Part shown: positions 5,495 through 36,148 of the stretch, piece by piece
Numbering within the stretch: the first letter of the stretch is position 1
Layout of the letters: each line of letters starts with the position of its first letter
From: Kribbella sp. CA-293567
GTDB lineage: Bacteria > Actinomycetota > Actinomycetes > Propionibacteriales > Kribbellaceae
DNA length: 64,000 bases
Assembly: GCF_027627575.1 (NCBI RefSeq)
Contig: NZ_CP114065.1
Span: 7,192,001 to 7,256,000 of the forward strand
Direction: 5' to 3'
Notes under the pieces: generated by a model
Databases searched by the model: none
What the model saw: only the letters and a program-made list of their open reading frames with translations
Told to the model about the DNA's origin: nothing
Position numbers and translations under genes: made by a program

Positions 5495-6478
5495 GTGCTG
5501 GAACCGCTGGGTGTGGATGACGCCACCTTCGCGGTCTACCATGCCCTGCTCAGCCGCCCGGACAGTACTCCGGAGCAGATCGCGGCGCTGCTGAACCGGT
5601 CCCTGAGCGACGTGCTGGACACGATGAACCAGCTGCGGAAGCTCGAACTGCTGGTCCCGACCTGGACCGACCCGGGCGCCGAGCACGCGGTCCACCCCCG
5701 GGTGGGCCTGTCCGGGCTGGCCGAGCGCCGCCGCGGTGAACTGACCCAGATGCTCAACGAGCTGAACCAGGCCGAGTCCTCGGCCGACGTGATCGCGGAG
5801 CAGTACAACGAGCTCCTCACCTCCCGCAGCAGCGGTGACATCGAGGTACTGAAGGGCCGCGCGAACGCGTCCCGGCGGATCGAGGAGCTCGGTCTGAAGG
5901 CGAAGAACTCCTTCTGGGGGATGGTGCCGGCCCACATCGACGACGCGCTGCACCCGGTCGAAGGGTCGCCGGACGCGCCGTTGCTCGAGCGCGGGCTGAA
6001 GATGCGCACCATCTACCTGCAGAGCATGACGGTCTCCAAGCCCGGTCTCGACTACGCGGCGATGCTGCACCGCCTCGGCGGCGAGGTCCGGGCGACCCCG
6101 ACCCTGCCGATGCGGCTGCTCATCCTCGACCACGAGATCGCGATCATGGCGATGGACCCGGAGAACCCGACCGCCGGCGCGGTGATCCACCGCAGCCCCT
6201 CGGTGGTCGCACTCGCGCTCGCCCTCTTCGACGCCTACTGGTCCCGCGCCTCGGAGCTCTTCTCCCCCGAGGACCGCGACGACAACAACCCGCTCACCCC
6301 GCACGAGGCCGAGGTACTGCGCCTGCTGGCCGGCGGCGCCAAGGACGAGCAGGTGGCCCGGCTGCTCGGCATCTCGCTGCGCACCGCCCGGCGGATCACC
6401 GCCAACCTCTCCGAGAGGCTGGATGCCACCAGCCGGTTCGAACTCGGAGTGGCCGCCGCGAAACGCGGCTGGGTCTGA
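5495..6478 (+). CDS. TrmB-like / LuxR-type HTH transcriptional regulator
   Basis: A 327-residue regulator. Residues ~5-65 form a TrmB-like winged helix (TFAVYHALLSRPDSTPEQIA). The middle (~105-245) resembles the TrmB effector domain, with ALKGRANASRRIEEL and TLPMRLLILDHEIAIM. The last ~60 residues are a LuxR-type helix-turn-helix (LTPHEAEVLRLLAGGAKDEQ, then ARLLGISLRTARRI). This architecture is common in actinomycetes; ligands are mostly unknown. The start at 5495 (GTG) is chosen because GGAGG lies 10 bases before it; the alternative GTG at 5486 is too close to that box. It is divergent from the small peptide gene and probably controls it. Confidence 0.88.
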   Translation: MLEPLGVDDATFAVYHALLSRPDSTPEQIAALLNRSLSDVLDTMNQLRKLELLVPTWTDPGAEHAVHPRVGLSGLAERRRGELTQMLNELNQAESSADVIAEQYNELLTSRSSGDIEVLKGRANASRRIEELGLKAKNSFWGMVPAHIDDALHPVEGSPDAPLLERGLKMRTIYLQSMTVSKPGLDYAAMLHRLGGEVRATPTLPMRLLILDHEIAIMAMDPENPTAGAVIHRSPSVVALALALFDAYWSRASELFSPEDRDDNNPLTPHEAEVLRLLAGGAKDEQVARLLGISLRTARRITANLSERLDATSRFELGVAAAKRGWV

Positions 6479-6849
6479 TCGCCGAAAAGCACACCGGAAA
6501 TGGCGGCGAATTACTTCGCCGGGACTGGTTGCGGGCCGAGATCGACAATTTCAATTCGCAGAACGGGACTACTCGGTTCCGGTATTTGTGAGTTGCCGTC
6601 ACAGCATGCGGAATTCCGCAGGTACGACAACGGCGAGAGCTGCCTGCAGGGGCGTCCCGCCAGGAGAGCTGGGGATGACGGCACCGCGGACCAGGCCGGT
6701 CCGGCGACCTGCGGACTAGACCAATCAGGCCAGGAATTGCGATCCGATCGAAATGCGGACTGGACCAGGATTCTGCCGGGGATGGCGCCACAACTGAGCG
6801 AAGTGGCCCGGTTCGCTCAGTTGTGGACCGATTTCCGGTTGCCGCGGGG
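6479..6849. other. Intergenic region between convergent regulator and pntB, no gene seen
   Basis: 371 bp of somewhat lower GC than the flanks. Open frames here run into the pntB coding region on the wrong strand and show no protein-like features. The only clear structure is the hairpin at 6788-6826. Confidence 0.6.
6788..6826. terminator. Strong hairpin between convergent genes
   Basis: Perfect 15-bp arms CCACAACTGAGCGAA (6788-6802) and TTCGCTCAGTTGTGG (6812-6826) with a 9-nt loop, 23 bp beyond the pntB stop codon. It probably works as a terminator for pntB and, being symmetric, for the regulator too. No T-run is present. Confidence 0.6.
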
Positions 6850-8216
<1,367 letters not shown>

Positions 8217-8220
<4 letters not shown>

Positions 8221-8522
8221 TTGTGCAGCTCCTTCTTGCGCGCCGCCGGACCGCGGAACATCTGCAGCATCCGGTCGGTGACGACGAATCCGCCGACCAT
8301 GTTCACCGTCGCCAGTACGACGGCCAGCAACCCGACGATCACCACGCCGGTGGACTCGGCCTGGCCGGTGACGATGATGGCGCCGACCAGGATGACGCCG
8401 TGGATCGCGTTCGCGCCCGACATCAACGGGGTGTGCAGGGTCGAGGAGACCTTGCTGATCACCTCGACGCCGACGAACGCCGCGAGCACGAAGATCGTCA
8501 GCAAAGCGATGGTCTCGGTCAT
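8217..8522 (-). CDS. pntAb: NAD(P) transhydrogenase subunit alpha part 2 (membrane)
   Basis: A 101-residue membrane subunit carrying part of the proton channel of transhydrogenase. Hydrophobic helices include IALLTIFVLAAFVGVEVISK, NAIHGVILVGAIIVTG and VVIVGLLAVVLATVNMVGGF. The sequence LHTPLMSGANAIHGVI is diagnostic of this family. It overlaps both neighbours by 4 bp: ATGA with pntAa and GTGA with pntB. The split of the alpha subunit into two genes is the usual arrangement in many actinobacteria and alphaproteobacteria. Confidence 0.96.
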
Positions 8523-9643
8523 GCCATCGGTCCTTCCAGCAACTCGCGGGTCGGCTCGTGCAGCACGGTGCCGTCATGGGTGAGGCAGCAACCGCGGACG
8601 ATCTCGTCGGAGAAGTCGGGGTTGAACTCGGCGTCGCGGGTCATCAGCGTGATCAGGTTCGCGATGTTCTGCCCGTAGAGCCGGCTGGCCGGGCCGGCCA
8701 TCTGGCTGGGCACGTTCGCGCCGCCCCAGACCAGTGCGTTGCCGATCATCAGTTCGGTCCCGGCCACCGAGCCCTCGACGTTGCCGCCGGACTCCGAGGC
8801 CAGGTCGACGACGACCGAGCCGGGCTTCATCTGCTCGACCATCGAGCGCGACACCAGCATCGGCGCCGTCCGGCCGGGCACCGCGGCGGTGGTGATCAGC
8901 GCGTCCGCGCCCGCGATGTACGGCGTCAGCAGGTCACGCTGCAGCTGCGCGCGCTCCTCGGTCATCTCGCGGGCGTAGCCACCCGGCCCGTCCAGCGTGC
9001 CGAGCTCCAGCTCGATCGGCTGGGCGCCCATCGACGCGATCTCCTCGGCGGCGGCGGTGCGGACGTCGTACGCCTTCACCACCGCGCCGAGGCGCTTCGC
9101 GGTCGCGATCGCCTGCAGTCCGGCGACACCGGCGCCCAGCACCAGCACCTGGGCCGGCGGCACCGTGCCGGCGGCGGTCATGTTCAGCGGGAAGAACCGC
9201 GGCAGCCGCTCGGCGGCGACGATGGCCGCCCGGTAGCCGGCCACCAGGGCCTGCGAGGAGAGTGCGTCCATCGACTGCGCCCGGGAGATCCGCGGGATCA
9301 TCTCCATCGCGAACGCCGTCAGCTTGGCCCGGGTCGCGGCCCGGACCACGTCCGGCGGGTTGGTCGGCAGGAAGGACATCAACGCCGTACCGGCGTGCAG
9401 CCGCTGCAGCCGCTCGCGCTCGAGCGGCTGCACCGACACCACCACCGTCGCGGCATGGTCGGCCCCCCAGGCCACCTCGGCTCCCGCCTCGCGGTAGGCG
9501 TCGTCGGAGTACAGCGCGCGCTCGCCGGCCGCGGGCTCGACCGCGACCTCGTAGCCGAGCTGGACGAGCTTGACGACTTGTTCCGGCACCAGGGCCACCC
9601 GGCGCTCGGCCGGTCTGGTCTCTCGCACTACTGCGATCTTCAC
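8519..9643 (-). CDS. pntAa: NAD(P) transhydrogenase subunit alpha part 1 (NAD-binding)
   Basis: Cytosolic NAD(H)-binding domain I of transhydrogenase, 374 residues, beginning VKIAVVRETRPAERRVALVP, which is closely related to alanine dehydrogenase. The Rossmann motif VLGAGVAGLQAIATAKRLGA and the downstream KAYDVRTAA are clear. Start is GTG at 9643 with a weak GGCGA box. First gene of pntAa-pntAb-pntB; the M20 peptidase gene ends 53 bp upstream on the same strand, so read-through from it is possible. Confidence 0.96.
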   Translation of the reverse strand: MKIAVVRETRPAERRVALVPEQVVKLVQLGYEVAVEPAAGERALYSDDAYREAGAEVAWGADHAATVVVSVQPLERERLQRLHAGTALMSFLPTNPPDVVRAATRAKLTAFAMEMIPRISRAQSMDALSSQALVAGYRAAIVAAERLPRFFPLNMTAAGTVPPAQVLVLGAGVAGLQAIATAKRLGAVVKAYDVRTAAAEEIASMGAQPIELELGTLDGPGGYAREMTEERAQLQRDLLTPYIAGADALITTAAVPGRTAPMLVSRSMVEQMKPGSVVVDLASESGGNVEGSVAGTELMIGNALVWGGANVPSQMAGPASRLYGQNIANLITLMTRDAEFNPDFSDEIVRGCCLTHDGTVLHEPTRELLEGPMA

Positions 9644-11021: not shown

Positions 11022-11103
11022 GCGCCCTACCGTACTGCGGGTCAATCATTTACTTTCTACCGAGAAGATCCCGAAGGTTACCGCCCGAACCCCGGAGGAC
11101 ATG

Positions 11104-12045
11104 ATGACCCGCCCCTTCGCCATCGTCACCGCCTTCGTCACCACCGCGGCCGCGCTGACCGCCCTCGGTACGCCGGCCAGTGCCGCGATCACCTGCGACA
11201 CCGCGGCCAACACCGGCAGCCCCTTCTACGACGGCCCGTCGGCCTCCAAGAAGTACGACGCCAGGTTCAGCAACAGCGCGAGCATTCCCAACCTCGGCAC
11301 GCACACCCCACAGGGCGCGGGCACTTGGTACAACTGGGACGGCTCCGGCAAGAACCTGCTGCTGGTCACGTCGTACCGCGCGGGCGCCGACTCGCAGATC
11401 TACGGCATCGACCCGGCCACCGGCTCCACGGTCGGCGTGGTGGCCATCGCCGAGGCACACGTCGGCGGGATCACCACCACCAAGGGCTGGGCCTTCGTCG
11501 CCGGTGCGGGCAGCTCCATCCGCAAGTACCGGCTGACCGAGCTCCGCGACGCTCTGAAAGCCGCCGGTACGCCGTACCTGGCGCAGGTGGGCACAGCGCG
11601 AAACGTGGCCGGCTCCTCGTTCCTGACCAGCTACGGCGACTCGGTCTTCTCCGGCAGCTTCAACGAGACCGGTCGCGGCACCATGTACGAGTACAAGGTC
11701 GCCACCGACGGCACGCTCACCACTCAGGCCGGTGCCTGGGAGGTCCCCACCAAGACGCAGGGCCTGATGGTGACGGCCAACCACTTCGTCTACAGCACGT
11801 CGTACGGGCGGGGTAACCGCAGCAACCTGTACGTCGTACGGCGTGGCCAGAAGGATCTGGACGCGGCTCAGCTGAGCTGCTTCCGGGCGCCGAGCATGAC
11901 CGAGGGCATCACCGAGTACAACGGCACGGCGTACCTGGTCTACGAGTCGGGCTCACACCTCTACAGCGGCGACTCGGCCACGCTCAACGTCATCCCGCGG
12001 ATGCACAAGGCCACGGCCTCGTCGCTGACCTCGCTGGTGCCCTAG
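11104..12045 (+). CDS. Secreted protein, probable beta-propeller, function unknown
   Basis: A 313-residue exported protein. MTRPFAIVTAFVTTAAALTA followed by PASA-AITCDTA gives a Sec signal peptide cut near residue 29. The mature part has repeated strands such as LLLVTSYRAGADSQIYGIDP, HVGGITTTKGWAFVAG and QGLMVTANHFVYSTSYG, suggesting a propeller-like fold. No catalytic motif is recognised. GGAGG lies 5 bases before this ATG; the ATG three bases earlier is too close. Its TAG stop overlaps the stop of the convergent kinase gene in a shared CTAG. Confidence 0.82.
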   Translation: MTRPFAIVTAFVTTAAALTALGTPASAAITCDTAANTGSPFYDGPSASKKYDARFSNSASIPNLGTHTPQGAGTWYNWDGSGKNLLLVTSYRAGADSQIYGIDPATGSTVGVVAIAEAHVGGITTTKGWAFVAGAGSSIRKYRLTELRDALKAAGTPYLAQVGTARNVAGSSFLTSYGDSVFSGSFNETGRGTMYEYKVATDGTLTTQAGAWEVPTKTQGLMVTANHFVYSTSYGRGNRSNLYVVRRGQKDLDAAQLSCFRAPSMTEGITEYNGTAYLVYESGSHLYSGDSATLNVIPRMHKATASSLTSLVP

Positions 12046-13526
12046 GGCCGCTTGTAGGAGGACGAACCCAGGACGTCGTTGACCTCGTCCTTGCTGCCGG
12101 CCCTGACCTGGGTCCGCAGCACTCCTACGCCGTTGACCAGTTGGTAGCGCTCACCCACGACCGGCTGGCCGCCGTTGCACTTGTAGAGGTAGATCGCGTT
12201 CTGCTCGGTGTAACCCGGGCCACCGTCCGCTACACAGTTCTCCGTCGGCTTGCCGGCCTTCGGGACCGTGACGCCCTTCTGCAGCTCGAGATAGACACCT
12301 GGTACGTCGCTGCTCTGCCGCCACTGACCGGTGTCGGTGGTGATCAAGAGGGCGGTGCCGTCGGCATTGGTCGACTGCTGGTTCCAGCTGCGGTCGACTG
12401 TCACCGACAACGAGTTCTCGCTGACGGTCACTGGAAGGCTCAAGACGAGCCGATAGCCGCCATAGCCACCACCCGCGGCCAGTAGCAGAGCAAGGACGAT
12501 CGTGACTGCCCATGCCCGGCCGGAGCGCCGTGAGCCCGTCCCAGCCGCCGACACCAGTGCCGCCGGAGCGGTCGCGGCATCCCCAGCGGCCTCACTGACC
12601 GGTGGGACTGTCGGCGCGTTGGCCGCTGAGAGCGCCGTCGGCTGGTCGATTCCGCCCGGCCCCGCCGGGACCGGCAGTTCCTCGGCCGGAACCAGCCCGG
12701 CCGGGATCTCGCCGGTCTCGTGTGCCTCTCGCAAGGCGTCGAGAAAGCTGTCGAGGTCCGGCCAGCGCTTGTCGCGGTCCGGCTCCAGGGCCCGCCGTAC
12801 GACGGCGTCGATCGCGTCCGGTACGTCGTCGCGCAGCGTGCTCATCCAGGGCGGCGGCTTCTCGATCCGCATCACCGCGCCCAGGCTGATCACGCCGTGC
12901 GGTGCCTGGCCGGTGAAGGCCGCGTAGGCGACGGCGCCGAGCGAGTAGAGGTCGGCGCGATGGTCGAGCCGGTCGCCCATCACCTGCTCGGGCGCGACGT
13001 AGGCCGGCGTACCGCCGGGCATGGTCAGCTGGGACACGGTCTCCAGCGACTTGCCCAGTCCGAGGTCGCCGAGCATCGCGCGCTGGCCCGACTCGTCGGT
13101 GCGGAACAGCACGTTGGCCGGCTTCACGTCGCGGTGCAGGACGCCGCGGGCGTGCAGCTGCTTCAGCCCGAGGCCGACCTGGCCGATGACGTCGACGACG
13201 TCGTCGATCGACACCGGTCCGGCCTTGATCCGGTCCGCCAGCGAGCCGCCGTCGGCATAGGTCAGGACGAGATAGGGCCGGCCGTCCTCGGTCTCGCCGA
13301 CATCGTGCACGCCGACCACATGTGGTGAGTCGACCCGGCGCAGGAACCGGCCCTCGGCCAGGAAGCGGCGCCGGACGTCGTCCTCGTCGATCCAGTTGTC
13401 GGACAGGATCTTGACCGCGACCTCGGCGTCGAGCTGCTCGTCGCGGGCCAGCCAGACGGTCGCGAAACCCCCGGCACCCACCCGGCGGACCAGGGAGTAC
13501 CGGCCGATCCGCGGTGGCTGGTCCAT
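12042..13526 (-). CDS. Membrane-anchored serine/threonine protein kinase
   Basis: Eukaryotic-type kinase of 494 residues. Residues ~10-275 are the kinase domain: GAGGFATVW loop, Lys39 in EVAVKIL, catalytic Asp133 in LHRDVKPANVLF, a DLG (instead of DFG) at the metal site, and GGTPAYVAPEQV. A Pro/Ala linker leads to one membrane helix (~343-363, VTIVLALLLAAGG). An extracellular domain of ~130 residues with two cysteines may act as sensor; it is not a PASTA domain. The ATG at 13526 begins the conserved MDQPPRIGRYSLVRRVG. It is divergent from three tandem anchored paralogues. Confidence 0.93.
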   Translation of the reverse strand: MDQPPRIGRYSLVRRVGAGGFATVWLARDEQLDAEVAVKILSDNWIDEDDVRRRFLAEGRFLRRVDSPHVVGVHDVGETEDGRPYLVLTYADGGSLADRIKAGPVSIDDVVDVIGQVGLGLKQLHARGVLHRDVKPANVLFRTDESGQRAMLGDLGLGKSLETVSQLTMPGGTPAYVAPEQVMGDRLDHRADLYSLGAVAYAAFTGQAPHGVISLGAVMRIEKPPPWMSTLRDDVPDAIDAVVRRALEPDRDKRWPDLDSFLDALREAHETGEIPAGLVPAEELPVPAGPGGIDQPTALSAANAPTVPPVSEAAGDAATAPAALVSAAGTGSRRSGRAWAVTIVLALLLAAGGGYGGYRLVLSLPVTVSENSLSVTVDRSWNQQSTNADGTALLITTDTGQWRQSSDVPGVYLELQKGVTVPKAGKPTENCVADGGPGYTEQNAIYLYKCNGGQPVVGERYQLVNGVGVLRTQVRAGSKDEVNDVLGSSSYKRP

Positions 13527-13689
13527 CCCCGCATTATGCTCGATCGCAGGTGCGACCAGGTCGCCGGAGTGCGCGTCCGGGACCGGTACGAGGCTCCCGA
13601 GGTACCCGTCGGCCGCCGGCCCGTTGTTGTGGGGACCTGTCGAACAAAACCGCTGCCGGCGGCGTCCTATCCCGGACGGGGACGAATCG

Positions 13690-14928
13690 ATGGGACGACC
13701 GAACGTGAGATCTGGCAACGGCGTGCTGGCCGCGGCGATGGCTGCGGTCGCAGTAGTGGCTGTGGCTGGCGGCGGGGCCCTTGCGGCCGGCCGCAAGTCC
13801 GTCACGTCCAACTCGGCGCTGGTAGGACCGCTCGCCGTGGGCCCGACAGCTACCCCGACCCCTCGCCCCGGCACCACCTCCCCCACGGCCCGCGCGACCC
13901 CGTCGACAGTGGCCACGACGCCGCCGCCGGCGACTCCGCCCCCGCCGGGCACCCCCACGCCGACCCTGCCGACGGTGAAGGTGGAGCTCGCCCGTCTGCC
14001 ACAGGGCCGCGCTCCTCAGGTGGTCTACCTCGACGGGCGGGTGGTCAAGGGTGGCCTCGGCAGCGACGTCCCGGTGCCCGGCCGGCAGCAGATCCTGCGA
14101 GCCGCCCGGTACGACGGTGACGCGCTGGTCGTCCTCGAGGTCGGTCTGGGGGGCAGCGAGCTCGTCCGCGTCGACAGTCACAGCGGCATCGAGCCCGAGC
14201 GCGTTGCCGATGTCGCCAGCCTGGTCAGCAACGCCGACGAGGACACGGTCGCCTTCGGGACGGCCCGCAGCAACCCGGACCACACCCGGCGCAAGGGCAA
14301 TGTCGTCCACTGGCGCAACAACTACGAGGACCGCAAGCTCGATCGCCCCGGCGACTGGGAGTCGAAGGTGCTGGCGGTGGTCGGCGAGACCGTCTACTTC
14401 GCCGCGCTGACCGATCGGGACGGCCCGGCCGCGACGCTGAACAGCTGGCACACCCGGAGCGGCAAGGTGGAGAAGCTGCGGTCCTTCAAGACCCCCGCGG
14501 GGGTGGACTTCCAGGGCGCGAACGGCGTCGACGAACTGGAGGGCGCCGACCAGACCTTCTGCTCGGCGATCCGTGAGCTCGGCAGTGGGAAGCAGCTCTG
14601 GCGGACCTGCGAGCACTCGCTGGACGGCTTCACCCCGGACGGCCGGACCGTCTTCGCGACCCCTGACTTCCACGCCGGTGGATCCGACCCGTGGACCAGC
14701 GCGATCGACACCGCGACCGGCACGGTACGGCGCCAGTGGACCGGCGTGCAGTTCCTCAGCGCCACCGCCGAGGACGACAACCACCTGCTGATGGTCGTCG
14801 CCAACGGTGAGCGGACGCCTGGTGCGATCATCAGGTGCAGCATCGACTCCGGCGCCTGTGAGCTGGCGACGAAACCCGCGCGGACGGCCGAACGGGACCG
14901 GCTCCGGCTGATGGGAGGGTGGGGATGA
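13690..14928 (+). CDS. Membrane-anchored extracytoplasmic protein, paralogue 1 of 3
   Basis: 412 residues: a short cytoplasmic start, one hydrophobic segment (LAAAMAAVAVVAVAGGGALA), a Pro/Thr-rich stalk (~45-95) and a ~310-residue outer domain. The outer domain shares marks with the next two genes: an RAPQVVYLDGRVVKGG start, a SGKQLWRTCEHSLDGFTPDG block, AEDDNHLLMVV and a C-terminal AIIRCSIDSGACELA. These look like propeller blades. Function is unknown. The next gene's ATG overlaps its TGA (ATGA). It is divergent from the kinase gene, 163 bp between starts. Confidence 0.8.
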   Translation: MGRPNVRSGNGVLAAAMAAVAVVAVAGGGALAAGRKSVTSNSALVGPLAVGPTATPTPRPGTTSPTARATPSTVATTPPPATPPPPGTPTPTLPTVKVELARLPQGRAPQVVYLDGRVVKGGLGSDVPVPGRQQILRAARYDGDALVVLEVGLGGSELVRVDSHSGIEPERVADVASLVSNADEDTVAFGTARSNPDHTRRKGNVVHWRNNYEDRKLDRPGDWESKVLAVVGETVYFAALTDRDGPAATLNSWHTRSGKVEKLRSFKTPAGVDFQGANGVDELEGADQTFCSAIRELGSGKQLWRTCEHSLDGFTPDGRTVFATPDFHAGGSDPWTSAIDTATGTVRRQWTGVQFLSATAEDDNHLLMVVANGERTPGAIIRCSIDSGACELATKPARTAERDRLRLMGGWG

Positions 14929-16160
14929 AGCAGCAGAACGCCCTACTGGCCATCATCGTCGCCGCTGTGACGGTCGCCGCGGTCGTCGCGGGTGGCGTCC
15001 TGGCCTCCCGCCAGGTGCCGCGAGCCGAGGCCGTCGCCGACGCCGTACCGCTGCCGGCGCTTGCCACGACGCCACGGCCGACCACTCCGCCGGTCCCTCC
15101 GCCTGCGACCGGTACTCCGCCCGCCGCGCCGTCCACAACACCGCGACCGCCCTCGACCGCACCGTCGGTTCCCTCGTCCGTTCCGGTGGCGACTCCTGGG
15201 AAGACGGCGACCTCGACCGGACCGACCAAGATCACCCTGGCCGTCGACAAGCTCGTCCGTGGACGGCTGCCGCAGATTCCCTACCTGGTCGGCCGGGAAG
15301 TTCGCGGAGGCGCCGGAGCTCCGCTCAGAATCCCCGGTACGGCGGACATCCTCGAGATCGCGCGAGTGAACGGCGCCGTACTGGCCCTGACCACCGATGT
15401 GAACGGCAGCAGAGTTCTGCGACTCGGCGGCGACGATCCGAAGAGCGTCCCGAACGTCAACCGGATGAAGATCAACGAGGAGCAGACCGGCGCCGCCTAC
15501 GCGGCCTCAGGCCCGAGCGGGTCCCCGGTGGAGGGTGGCACGCTCTATGCCGACTCCGGCGACCAGTTGAGGTCGCTCAAGGTGACCACCGGCTGGAACT
15601 TCCAGGTCCTCGCCTATGTGAAGGGGAAGGTCTACTTCCAGTCCGCCAGTCACCTCGGCACGGGCGGCACGACGAGCACGTACCAATGGACTCCCGGCGC
15701 GGCCGAGGCCGAATCGGTCCCGACCGTTCCGCGGCTGACGACGCTCAGCGCGGACGCCGAGGTGGCCGCCACGATGGTGCTGCTCAACGACGCCGGCAGT
15801 TGCTCGGCGATCACCGAGGTCGCGACCGGCAAGCGGCTCTGGAAGACCTGCGACTACTACCTCAACGGCTTCACGCCCGACGGCGCCACCACGTTCGGCG
15901 TCCAGTCGGGCGACGAAGGTTATTGCAGCCTCTCCCAGGTAGCCCTGGACGCGAAGACCGGCCGGCTGATCCGCGAGTGGAAGGGTTGCTTCCAGCAGGT
16001 CACGGCCGAGGACGACGAGCACCTGCTGATGGTCGCGGTCGCGGCGGGCGGTGGCGGGGATGACGCGGACCTGGCGATCATCCGGTGCGCGATCAGTACC
16101 GGCGACTGCGAGCTGGCCGTTCCCGTCAGCCCGAAGACCCGACTGAGGCTCGCCAAATGA
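14925..16160 (+). CDS. Membrane-anchored extracytoplasmic protein, paralogue 2 of 3
   Basis: 411 residues with the same plan as its neighbours: MKQQNALLAIIVAAVTVAAV membrane anchor, Pro/Thr/Ser-rich stalk to about residue 100, then an outer domain starting LPQIPYLVGREVRGGAG. Shared blocks are GKRLWKTCDYYLNGFTPDG, AEDDEHLLMVA and AIIRCAISTGDCELA. Cysteines occur at the same places in all three paralogues and probably form disulfides. ATG at 14925 has a strong GGGAGGGTGGGG box and overlaps the previous stop. Function unknown. Confidence 0.8.
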   Translation: MKQQNALLAIIVAAVTVAAVVAGGVLASRQVPRAEAVADAVPLPALATTPRPTTPPVPPPATGTPPAAPSTTPRPPSTAPSVPSSVPVATPGKTATSTGPTKITLAVDKLVRGRLPQIPYLVGREVRGGAGAPLRIPGTADILEIARVNGAVLALTTDVNGSRVLRLGGDDPKSVPNVNRMKINEEQTGAAYAASGPSGSPVEGGTLYADSGDQLRSLKVTTGWNFQVLAYVKGKVYFQSASHLGTGGTTSTYQWTPGAAEAESVPTVPRLTTLSADAEVAATMVLLNDAGSCSAITEVATGKRLWKTCDYYLNGFTPDGATTFGVQSGDEGYCSLSQVALDAKTGRLIREWKGCFQQVTAEDDEHLLMVAVAAGGGGDDADLAIIRCAISTGDCELAVPVSPKTRLRLAK

Positions 16161-16192
16161 CGCAGGTCCCCCCGACGGTCCGGAGGCCGGAG

Positions 16193-17383
16193 ATGAAGAA
16201 CAAGAACGGCCGGCTGGTCGCGCTGATCGCCTCGGTCGCGGTGGCGGCGGTAGCCATCGGCGGCGGCCTCGCCTACAGCAAGGGCCCGAGCGACGGTGCC
16301 GGCGCCGCGGTTCCGCTGGCGGCACCGACCACTCCGGCCCCGACGCCGGGCCCGACTTCGGCGCCGACTCCGAGCACTCCCCCGGTCCCGGGCAGCAAGA
16401 CCCCTACGCCGTCGGGGACCCCGGTCAAGCCCGCCGGACCGGTCAAGATCACGCTCGACCTCGCCAAGCTGTCCAAGGGCCGCGATCCGCAGGTGCCGTA
16501 TCTGGTCGGCCGGGTGGTGCGCGGCGGCGCGGGCGGCGAGCGGACCATCCCCGGCAAGGCAGCCATTCACGCGGTGGCCCGGGCCAGGGACCAGGTGTTC
16601 GCGATCGTCGAGAAGGGGCTGGGAACCGAGCTGGTGAAGCTCGGACCGGGCGACGGTCAGGCCGTGCGGGTGCCGGATGTCACCGCGCTGGTGTCGAGCG
16701 CCGACGGCGCCGCGGCGGCGTACTCCACGACCCGGATCGGCGAGCAGGGCGAGGAGCTCCAAGGCGCCACGGTGTACGCCGAGGACGTCGACGGAACACA
16801 GAAGCTCGCCCTGCCGAAGGCGTGGGGCGTCCGGGTCCTCTCCGTGGTGAACGGCAACGTGTTTTACGAAGCCAACGACACGCAGGGCGGCGCGTCCGAG
16901 CTGCACTCCTGGACGCCTGGTGAGCCGAAAGCCCAGCAGATCAAGGCCAGTTCGCCCACCGGTGTCTCTCCCGACGGCCGGCTGGTCGCTTCGATGGGTC
17001 TGATCAGCGACGGTGGCTCGTGCACCGACGTCGCCGAGATCGCCACCGGCAAACGGCTCTGGAAGACCTGTGAGAGCAGCATCTCGGGCTTCACCCCCGA
17101 CGGCCGGACCGCATTCGGAGGCGATGCGTACGCCGACGGCTACTGCTCCGGGACCACATCGGCACTCGATGCGACGACCGGGGTGAAACTGCGCGAATGG
17201 ACCAGCTGCTTCTTCCAGACCGTGCCTGAGGACGACCAGCACCTGCTGCTCGTCGTCGATGCCGAGAACGGCGGCGGCGCCGACGGCAACGGGCAGCGCG
17301 CGATCATCCGCTGTGACATCACCACCGGGACCTGTGAGCTGGCGACCCCGCTGAGCCGGTCCGGAGTGCGCATCGGCGAGTGA
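16193..17383 (+). CDS. Membrane-anchored extracytoplasmic protein, paralogue 3 of 3
   Basis: 396 residues from the ATG at 16193, which has GGAGG six bases upstream and gives MKNKNGRLVALIASVAVAAV, matching the N-termini of the paralogues. A second possible start is the ATG at 16157, which overlaps the previous stop and adds 12 residues. After the Pro/Thr stalk come DPQVPYLVGRVVRGGAGG, GKRLWKTCESSISGFTPDG, PEDDQHLLLVV and AIIRCDITTGTCELA. It is last in a three-gene tandem array. The outer domain may be a WD40 or PQQ-like propeller; no enzyme motif is seen. Confidence 0.8.
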   Translation: MKNKNGRLVALIASVAVAAVAIGGGLAYSKGPSDGAGAAVPLAAPTTPAPTPGPTSAPTPSTPPVPGSKTPTPSGTPVKPAGPVKITLDLAKLSKGRDPQVPYLVGRVVRGGAGGERTIPGKAAIHAVARARDQVFAIVEKGLGTELVKLGPGDGQAVRVPDVTALVSSADGAAAAYSTTRIGEQGEELQGATVYAEDVDGTQKLALPKAWGVRVLSVVNGNVFYEANDTQGGASELHSWTPGEPKAQQIKASSPTGVSPDGRLVASMGLISDGGSCTDVAEIATGKRLWKTCESSISGFTPDGRTAFGGDAYADGYCSGTTSALDATTGVKLREWTSCFFQTVPEDDQHLLLVVDAENGGGADGNGQRAIIRCDITTGTCELATPLSRSGVRIGE

Positions 17384-35521: not shown

Positions 35522-36148
35522 ATGCTCACGCCCAGGCACCAGGCGCTGCTGGCGACACTTGCGGGAATGACCGTCGGGGTGGCCGTCTTCGGCACCGTTC
35601 TGGCGATCAACGGCAACTTCTCCGGCGACGACCCAGCCGCCACCAAGGTGGTCGCCAGTCAGCCGACTCAGACCCCCACCAGTGGCGACGGTCTGCAGGC
35701 CGATTCGCTCCAGTTCTCCTCCCAGCCCTTCGGGGCCGACAACGCGCCGGCGACCGCCGAGGTGCCGTCGACCTGGAAGAGCAGCAGCGGCGGCACCAGA
35801 CCGAGGTACGTCGATCCGACCGGGGTCTGGCAGATCCGGTTCGACACCCGGGGCAGCAGCCAGTCGCCGGACCAGCTGGTCGACAACCGCGCCCGCAGCA
35901 TCGAGGAGCGCGACCTCAAGGTGATCAGCCGCGACAACGGCACCCTGATCTACACCTACACGGACCAGACCCGCGGTCCGCGGATGGGGCTTTCCAGCTT
36001 CCGGCCCAGCGAGGACGGCAAGCGCACGCTGGTCGAGATCACCGTCGGCGGCCGCCCGCAGGACGAGGCCGGCCTCCGGACCGTCCTCCAGCGCGCCACC
36101 GACAGCCTGCAGCTCAGTGCGGGCGCGGGCGACACGAGGCCCAACTAG
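35522..36148 (+). CDS. Membrane-anchored protein of unknown function
   Basis: 208 residues: MLTPRHQALLATLAGMTVGV begins an N-terminal membrane anchor (~8-30), followed by a Thr/Ser/Gln-rich linker and an extracytoplasmic domain (~75-200) containing WQIRFDTRGSSQSPDQLV and LIYTYTDQTRGPRMGLSSF. No family recognised. A GAGG box lies before the ATG. It is tightly divergent from the SCP2-like gene and convergent with the TAP-type hydrolase gene. Confidence 0.75.
   Translation: MLTPRHQALLATLAGMTVGVAVFGTVLAINGNFSGDDPAATKVVASQPTQTPTSGDGLQADSLQFSSQPFGADNAPATAEVPSTWKSSSGGTRPRYVDPTGVWQIRFDTRGSSQSPDQLVDNRARSIEERDLKVISRDNGTLIYTYTDQTRGPRMGLSSFRPSEDGKRTLVEITVGGRPQDEAGLRTVLQRATDSLQLSAGAGDTRPN

Follow-up and report, generated by a model that had tools for sequence, protein, structure and literature searches.

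Which part do three tandem, stalked proteins play beside the receptor-type serine/threonine (Ser/Thr) kinase that is encoded divergently from them? The question is raised by a locus of Kribbella sp. CA-293567, within the 64,000 nucleotides analysed here (hereafter the window; contig NZ_CP114065.1, positions 7,192,001 to 7,256,000), in which three overlapping paralogues, F1 to F3 of what we call family F, face such a kinase. We propose, tentatively and with somewhat less than even confidence, that kinase and F proteins form a receptor-kinase module in which the kinase shares extracytoplasmic sensing with exchangeable beta-propeller partners encoded by genes of their own. The gene pairing throughout the genus, its re-arrangement at a second type of locus and the predicted fold of F are the main grounds for this proposal.

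F and the kinase were each present in all 38 Kribbella genomes searched. At least 52 F loci exist in them, as the genome searches scored part of their candidates; among the 52 counted, the kinase lies no more than about 5 kb from F in 46, one locus spans two contigs and five have no kinase (a weak partial F match in G037, C1:1162384, E 4e-6, was excluded). Two arrangements were observed. At main loci, kinase and F are divergent in 37 of 38 cases, the remaining one being split between two contigs, and a common succession of genes (peptidase, kinase, F, phosphoesterase, histidine kinase, LytTR regulator, symporter) is seen wherever the stretch extends far enough. At second loci, kinase and F are convergent (9/9). 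The number of F copies of at least 300 bases per main locus (37 loci) is one in 8 loci, two in 21, three in 4, four in 3 and six in 1. Two observations on individual records may be added: the record L014 (NZ_JAAGLV010000016.1), named Streptomyces sp. SID13031, is probably a misnamed Kribbella, and in L085 (G031; about 6200-9620) some 5 kb with several extra genes lie between kinase and F, one of them ATP-binding cassette transporter-like and one signal peptidase-like by eye.

In the kinase tree (64 kinase domains, rooted on a genus of the same order, g6, which we take to be Nocardioides), the main- and second-locus kinases form one clade (100/98), with a third Kribbella kinase as its sister. 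Among the kinases sampled for this tree, F is present only beside the F-linked clade. In the F tree, the propellers of the second loci group together as a single clade; four orphan F sequences were long enough for inclusion and fall among main-locus subfamilies. Stalked proteins of a different family, one or two per locus, were found near the third Kribbella kinase (6/6 loci, from 23 places) and near the g6 kinase (11/12, from 32 places). These small stalked partners are convergent with the kinase in 17/17 cases, at a distance of 6-490 bases in 16 and of 2.1 kb in one. A sigma factor of the extracytoplasmic function (ECF) type is encoded no more than about 2.1 kb from the kinase at all of these loci (6/6 and 12/12, respectively), at the second loci (9/9) and, in other families of the class, at 5/5 intact loci (six of nine class-level kinase matches outside the order were examined, one being cut by a contig end). 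Kinases whose outer domain is of the same type stand near an ECF sigma factor in L198 and L200-L203, from such other families; no small-partner match was found there. At the main locus, no sigma factor stands beside the kinase (38 stretches); two of these stretches (L068 and L092) hold one past the phosphoesterase, and main-locus F flanks the kinase on the side opposite to that of second-locus F.

The second-locus order, sigma factor, kinase and convergent F, matches the relatives' order of sigma factor, kinase and convergent small stalked protein. Because these orders are equal, the propeller holds the place of the small stalked family at the second locus, and the stalked partner of the kinase seems, as judged from gene order, to have been exchanged there. 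A fuller history can be drawn, which we judge less likely than not: the receptor-kinase family would retain its own outer domain and swap a separately encoded stalked co-receptor, the ancestral partner being the small stalked protein; a propeller related to a sigma-factor-linked family would have replaced this protein in Kribbella and then multiplied, to give several alternative co-sensors per kinase.

The profile-profile match between F and the small partners is confined to the hydrophobic anchor and the first part of the stalk (E 2e-5, probability 78%). When 7981 open reading frames were searched with a profile of the small-partner anchor, membrane segments of F and of the kinase filled the first 16 rows after the small partners (E 0.0007-0.036; two row pairs represent one locus twice), the next other frame having E 0.1. 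The reverse profile, built from F, retrieved neither kinases nor small partners at E values below 1. As a lead only, F, kinase and small partners may thus share a membrane segment. The small partners resemble the kinase outer domain in fold weakly (hhalign probability 12.5%; LpqN 15.8 bits versus 22.4, in one of four scanned), and a common fold is not claimed. The window encodes a further protein of the small-partner family (35522-36148, + strand; profile A6, E 2e-18), about 22 kb from the kinase, and a kinase-domain search of its 64 kb detected no second kinase.

The first-pass annotation had described F1 to F3 as three overlapping paralogues of one plan with shared sequence blocks, and the sequence bears this out with one amendment. 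The blocks GKxLWxTC, FTPDG, EDDxHLL and AIIRC...CELA are common to all three proteins, and PYLVGRxVRGG is exact in F2 and F3 only. Identity to F1 is 34% for F2 and 41% for F3, and F3 retrieves F2 from its own genome at E 6e-80, so that the similarity is not due to chance. Both gene junctions read ATGA, and an alternative start of F3 at 16193 agrees better with the family N-terminus. No further F copy is present among the nine matches in this genome, the other six (E 3e-5 to 0.5) being alike in hydrophobic and/or Pro/Thr-rich stretches alone.

The hydrophobic N-terminus suggests that F proteins are exported. Among 79 main-locus copies, mean column identity is 0.55 in this hydrophobic segment, 0.42 in the propeller and 0.38 in the stalk; the segment displays an invariant Ala-Gly-Ala series, spaced by four, that would fit helix packing. 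The conserved GGxLA at its end would also fit a signal-peptidase site, and the segment may be either a membrane anchor or a cleaved signal peptide. Cysteine is absent from the first 45 matched residues in 79/79 copies; therefore, F proteins are not lipoproteins. Two cysteines are invariant and two more nearly so in an alignment of 21 F sequences, a pattern in agreement with an exported, disulfide-bearing domain.

An AlphaFold model of the F3 outer domain (21 sequences) is a beta-propeller of 27 strands, with a predicted local distance difference test (pLDDT) of 91.0 and a predicted template modelling score of 0.89; F1 and F2 are homologues of F3. All 981 chains aligned from the best 1000 of Foldseek reached Z >=5, and 963 reached Z >=8. 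The top match is the propeller of an S9 peptidase (Z 17.7, root-mean-square deviation (rmsd) 3.4 over 260 residues). An enzymatic role was considered, since peptidase and thiocyanate dehydrogenase propellers are among the best folds, but chains of the WD40 type come within 1 of their scores; the fold therefore indicates no activity. The first-pass annotation had named an ordinary enzyme as the counter-case; F3 is modelled as a propeller and matches no recognised enzyme family. A Pfam and NCBIfam scan of F1-F3 found no family at its cut-off; the sole propeller-family match was that of F3 to PQQ_2 (16.1 bits, below the cut-off of 27.6), Pfam assigned no propeller family to F1 or F2 at E 1, and PDB sequences gave no match to the F profile at E 1.

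A divergent Ser/Thr kinase with its own outer domain of about 130 residues had also been announced, and is confirmed with a domain of 138 residues (table 1), the kinase gene falling outside the interval 13690-17383 that had been assigned to the module. Its motifs (VAVKIL, HRDVKPAN, DLG in place of DFG, and APE) are those of a Hanks-type catalytic domain, and the kinase may be active. The outer domain, modelled from eight sequences, obtained pLDDT 85 in the best model and 63-70 in the other four of five. VIA-align matched it to cyanobacterial PsbP (Z 10.9, rmsd 3.9, 122 of 138 residues), then to TiME (Z 9.4), Mog1p (9.1) and LpqN (7.1); Foldseek alone gave nothing at E <=0.001, the best match being PsbP at 0.007. 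A Mog1/PsbP-like fold over most of the domain is thus the less secure of the two fold predictions. The outer domain of the window kinase has no Pfam family at E 1, and hence does not reach the Lpp-LpqN cut-off. Two known kinase types were considered and rejected. The match to NF033483 (PASTA kinase Stk1/PknB; residues 11-388 of 497) reaches 202.7 bits, below the cut-off of 450, and Pfam detects no PASTA repeats; a PknD type is at odds with a polypeptide that ends after the predicted Mog1/PsbP-like domain and contains no propeller. A simple scan of the region between kinase and F1 yielded no sigma-70-like promoter match.

Table 1. Features of the kinase-F locus (positions within the window).
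Feature	Position	Strand	Basis
Receptor-type Ser/Thr kinase gene	12042 to about 13526	-	Pfam Pkinase E 2e-40
Kinase outer domain, 138 residues	12045-12458	-	model, Mog1/PsbP-like
Kinase membrane segment	about 12459-12515	-	hydrophobic stretch
Kinase domain	about 12765-13499	-	HRD, DLG, APE motifs in sequence
Divergent region between kinase and F1 start codons, 163 bases	13527-13689	.	sequence
F1, paralogue 1 (hydrophobic N-terminus, Pro/Thr stalk, outer domain)	13690-14928	+	
F2, paralogue 2	14925-16160	+	4-base overlap with F1
F3, paralogue 3	16157-17383	+	4-base overlap with F2
Predicted beta-propeller outer domain of F3	16439-17380	+	AlphaFold model and structure alignments

On the other flank of the kinase, a predicted secreted protein (11101-12045, + strand) is encoded convergently with it, the gene ends overlapping. 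It was recovered in 32 of 37 main loci and has weak family matches only; at a guess, it may be another propeller.

Outside Kribbella, profile A2 detected weaker F relatives both in an order sample (26 of 158 genomes; E 1e-10) and in a partly overlapping class sample (7 of 147 genomes; E 1e-12). We examined 24 of these remote loci (18 of 32 order-sample places and 6 of 7 class-sample places), several of which rest on partial matches, so that some may represent generic propeller similarity. No kinase-domain match was found near any of them (0/24). The pairing with a kinase therefore belongs to Kribbella: the kinase linkage, on which the envelope-sensing module put forward by the first-pass annotation was to be judged, holds within the genus (46/52 loci) and fails among remote relatives, and the proposed module is partly supported. 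A sigma factor lies directly upstream of the F relative in 18 of the 24 loci, and both of those tested reach the SigE-family cut-off. Where the start is readable, a hydrophobic segment is preceded by about 40-55 residues and followed by the propeller, so that the protein resembles a membrane regulator of its sigma factor. This succession of a SigE-type sigma factor and a protein with hydrophobic segment and F-like propeller is seen in L127, L130, L211-L216 and others, which possibly represent an uncharacterised family of membrane regulators in actinomycetes.

Divergence was compared among 26 main-locus genomes, 11 of 37 having been dropped because one of eight proteins was unrecovered, and a split genome (L090, L091) having been excluded beforehand. 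Pairwise identity has a median of 0.47 in the kinase outer domain and of 0.50 in the best F pair, compared with 0.87 in the kinase domain, 0.84 in the secreted neighbour and 0.79-0.94 across five further neighbours. Partial Mantel tests, with species distance removed, gave r 0.51 (p 0.0005) for kinase domain versus F.

If sensing is indeed divided between kinase and partners, F proteins would be exported and hold their propeller on the Pro/Thr stalk, where it would bind an envelope or outside ligand; the propellers would engage the outer domain of the kinase and/or its membrane segment, and ligand occupancy would alter kinase dimerisation and activity. Several fast-diverging F copies could then widen or tune the range of ligands. 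We favour this division because most loci are linked and either locus type has a single orientation, because the F-linked kinases and the second-locus propellers are each one clade, and because second-locus gene order equals that of relatives with the small stalked protein. It is further favoured because kinase outer domain and F diverge alike, with kinase domain and neighbours slower, and because the remote propeller relatives mostly follow a SigE-type sigma factor, which is another signalling setting. Finally, 44 of 58 parsable cytosolic tails (from 82 main-locus F open reading frames) are free of Ser and Thr; F proteins are thus poor kinase substrates.

Several observations weigh against this division of sensing. 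At five F loci, about 4 kb on either side hold no kinase (of these loci, one is fragmented and another partial), and the 46 linked loci cannot be counted as independent, because they descend from two ancestral arrangements. With species distance taken out, outer domain and F show no significant correlation (r 0.08, p 0.24; r 0.13, p 0.10); this test is weak and decides little, because its own positive control, kinase domain versus own outer domain, is likewise not significant (r 0.10, p 0.18). The correlation of kinase domain with F is in part a locus effect, because the phosphoesterase correlates with both (0.35, p 0.004 with the kinase domain; 0.35, p 0.003 with F). The fast divergence of F also fits surface proteins under other pressures.

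The propellers could be outputs rather than sensors, that is, surface proteins under control of the kinase pathway and encoded beside their regulator. Linkage and divergent starts at the main locus fit a regulator beside its target, a copy number of 1-6 and fast divergence fit variable surface proteins, and the five loci that hold F without kinase fit as well. We nevertheless consider it unlikely, if worth serious attention, since the kinase-F pair includes no transcription factor, second-locus F is convergent (9/9) and so shares no promoter region with the kinase, and the remote relatives are in a regulator-like layout behind a sigma factor (18/24). Conservation of the whole main-locus block, from peptidase and kinase through F, phosphoesterase, histidine kinase and regulator to symporter, raises the further question whether F merely hitchhikes in it, with no functional tie to the kinase, a view with which the non-significant outer-domain correlation agrees. 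Hitchhiking appears improbable, as adjacency is kept at the second locus with other neighbours and another orientation (9/9), and as F occurs only beside the F-linked clade among sampled kinases. That the propellers are fast-evolving recognition or attachment proteins (e.g. for wall, glycan or phage contact), with the kinase reporting on the same surface independently, seems highly improbable: F has no binding family at its cut-off and attachment alone does not explain the conserved kinase linkage, even if copy-number variation, low identity and the propeller as a common binding scaffold all point that way.

The proposed sharing of sensing by kinase and propeller partners has partial counterparts among known systems. 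PknD of Mycobacterium tuberculosis is a receptor Ser/Thr kinase with a six-bladed propeller sensor, whose ligand is given as unknown (PMC3601408); there too, a membrane Ser/Thr kinase works with an extracytoplasmic propeller (PMC3601408), but the propeller is fused to the kinase, whereas in Kribbella it is separate and multi-copy and the kinase outer domain is of another kind. Other bacterial Ser/Thr kinases carry PQQ, NHL or WD repeats, including PkwA (PMC1262709, PMC6113231). They tie propeller to kinase as here, but those considered are single-polypeptide fusions. PknG is not known to have a membrane segment, and LpqB has a propeller and binds MtrB. In the GlnH-GlnX-PknG system of Corynebacterium, the separate exported GlnH senses a ligand for a Ser/Thr kinase (PMC9769921). 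The exported sensor is separate from the kinase, as we propose for F, but GlnH is a lipoprotein of the binding-protein kind, and GlnX is a membrane protein in its own right (PMC9769921). MtrAB-LpqB and SigE-CseA-CseBC likewise encode a separate lipoprotein with a sensor kinase (PMC10714768, PMC8999054); these are histidine kinases with a single lipoprotein, whereas F is multi-copy and without N-terminal cysteine (0/79). Sigma factors are paired with Ser/Thr kinases in systems such as EcfP-PknT (PMC8999054). The wider kinase family resembles these in standing near an ECF sigma factor in all non-main loci examined, but no sigma factor is beside the main-locus kinase, and the related sigma factor retains the DAED motif, which EcfP lacks. 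The most economical reading is that the kinase-F arrangement is a mixture, in which a kinase with its own outer domain has separate stalked partners, these being multi-copy propellers in the present case. The literature matches listed, which mostly do not cover subscription journals, included no description of a kinase paired with tandem propellers.

The view of the first-pass annotation remains plausible and has gained support, with a corrected account of the module's origin, and the kinase belongs to a wider family in which other members are accompanied by a sigma factor and by stalked proteins of another family. For most receptor Ser/Thr kinases of bacteria, the signal has yet to be identified. 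A partner gene kept adjacent, together with an apparent natural swap at one locus, offers a genetic handle on the signals that such a kinase reads and, if sensing is indeed split as proposed, would give a testable role to two protein families that had no Pfam match at cut-off here.

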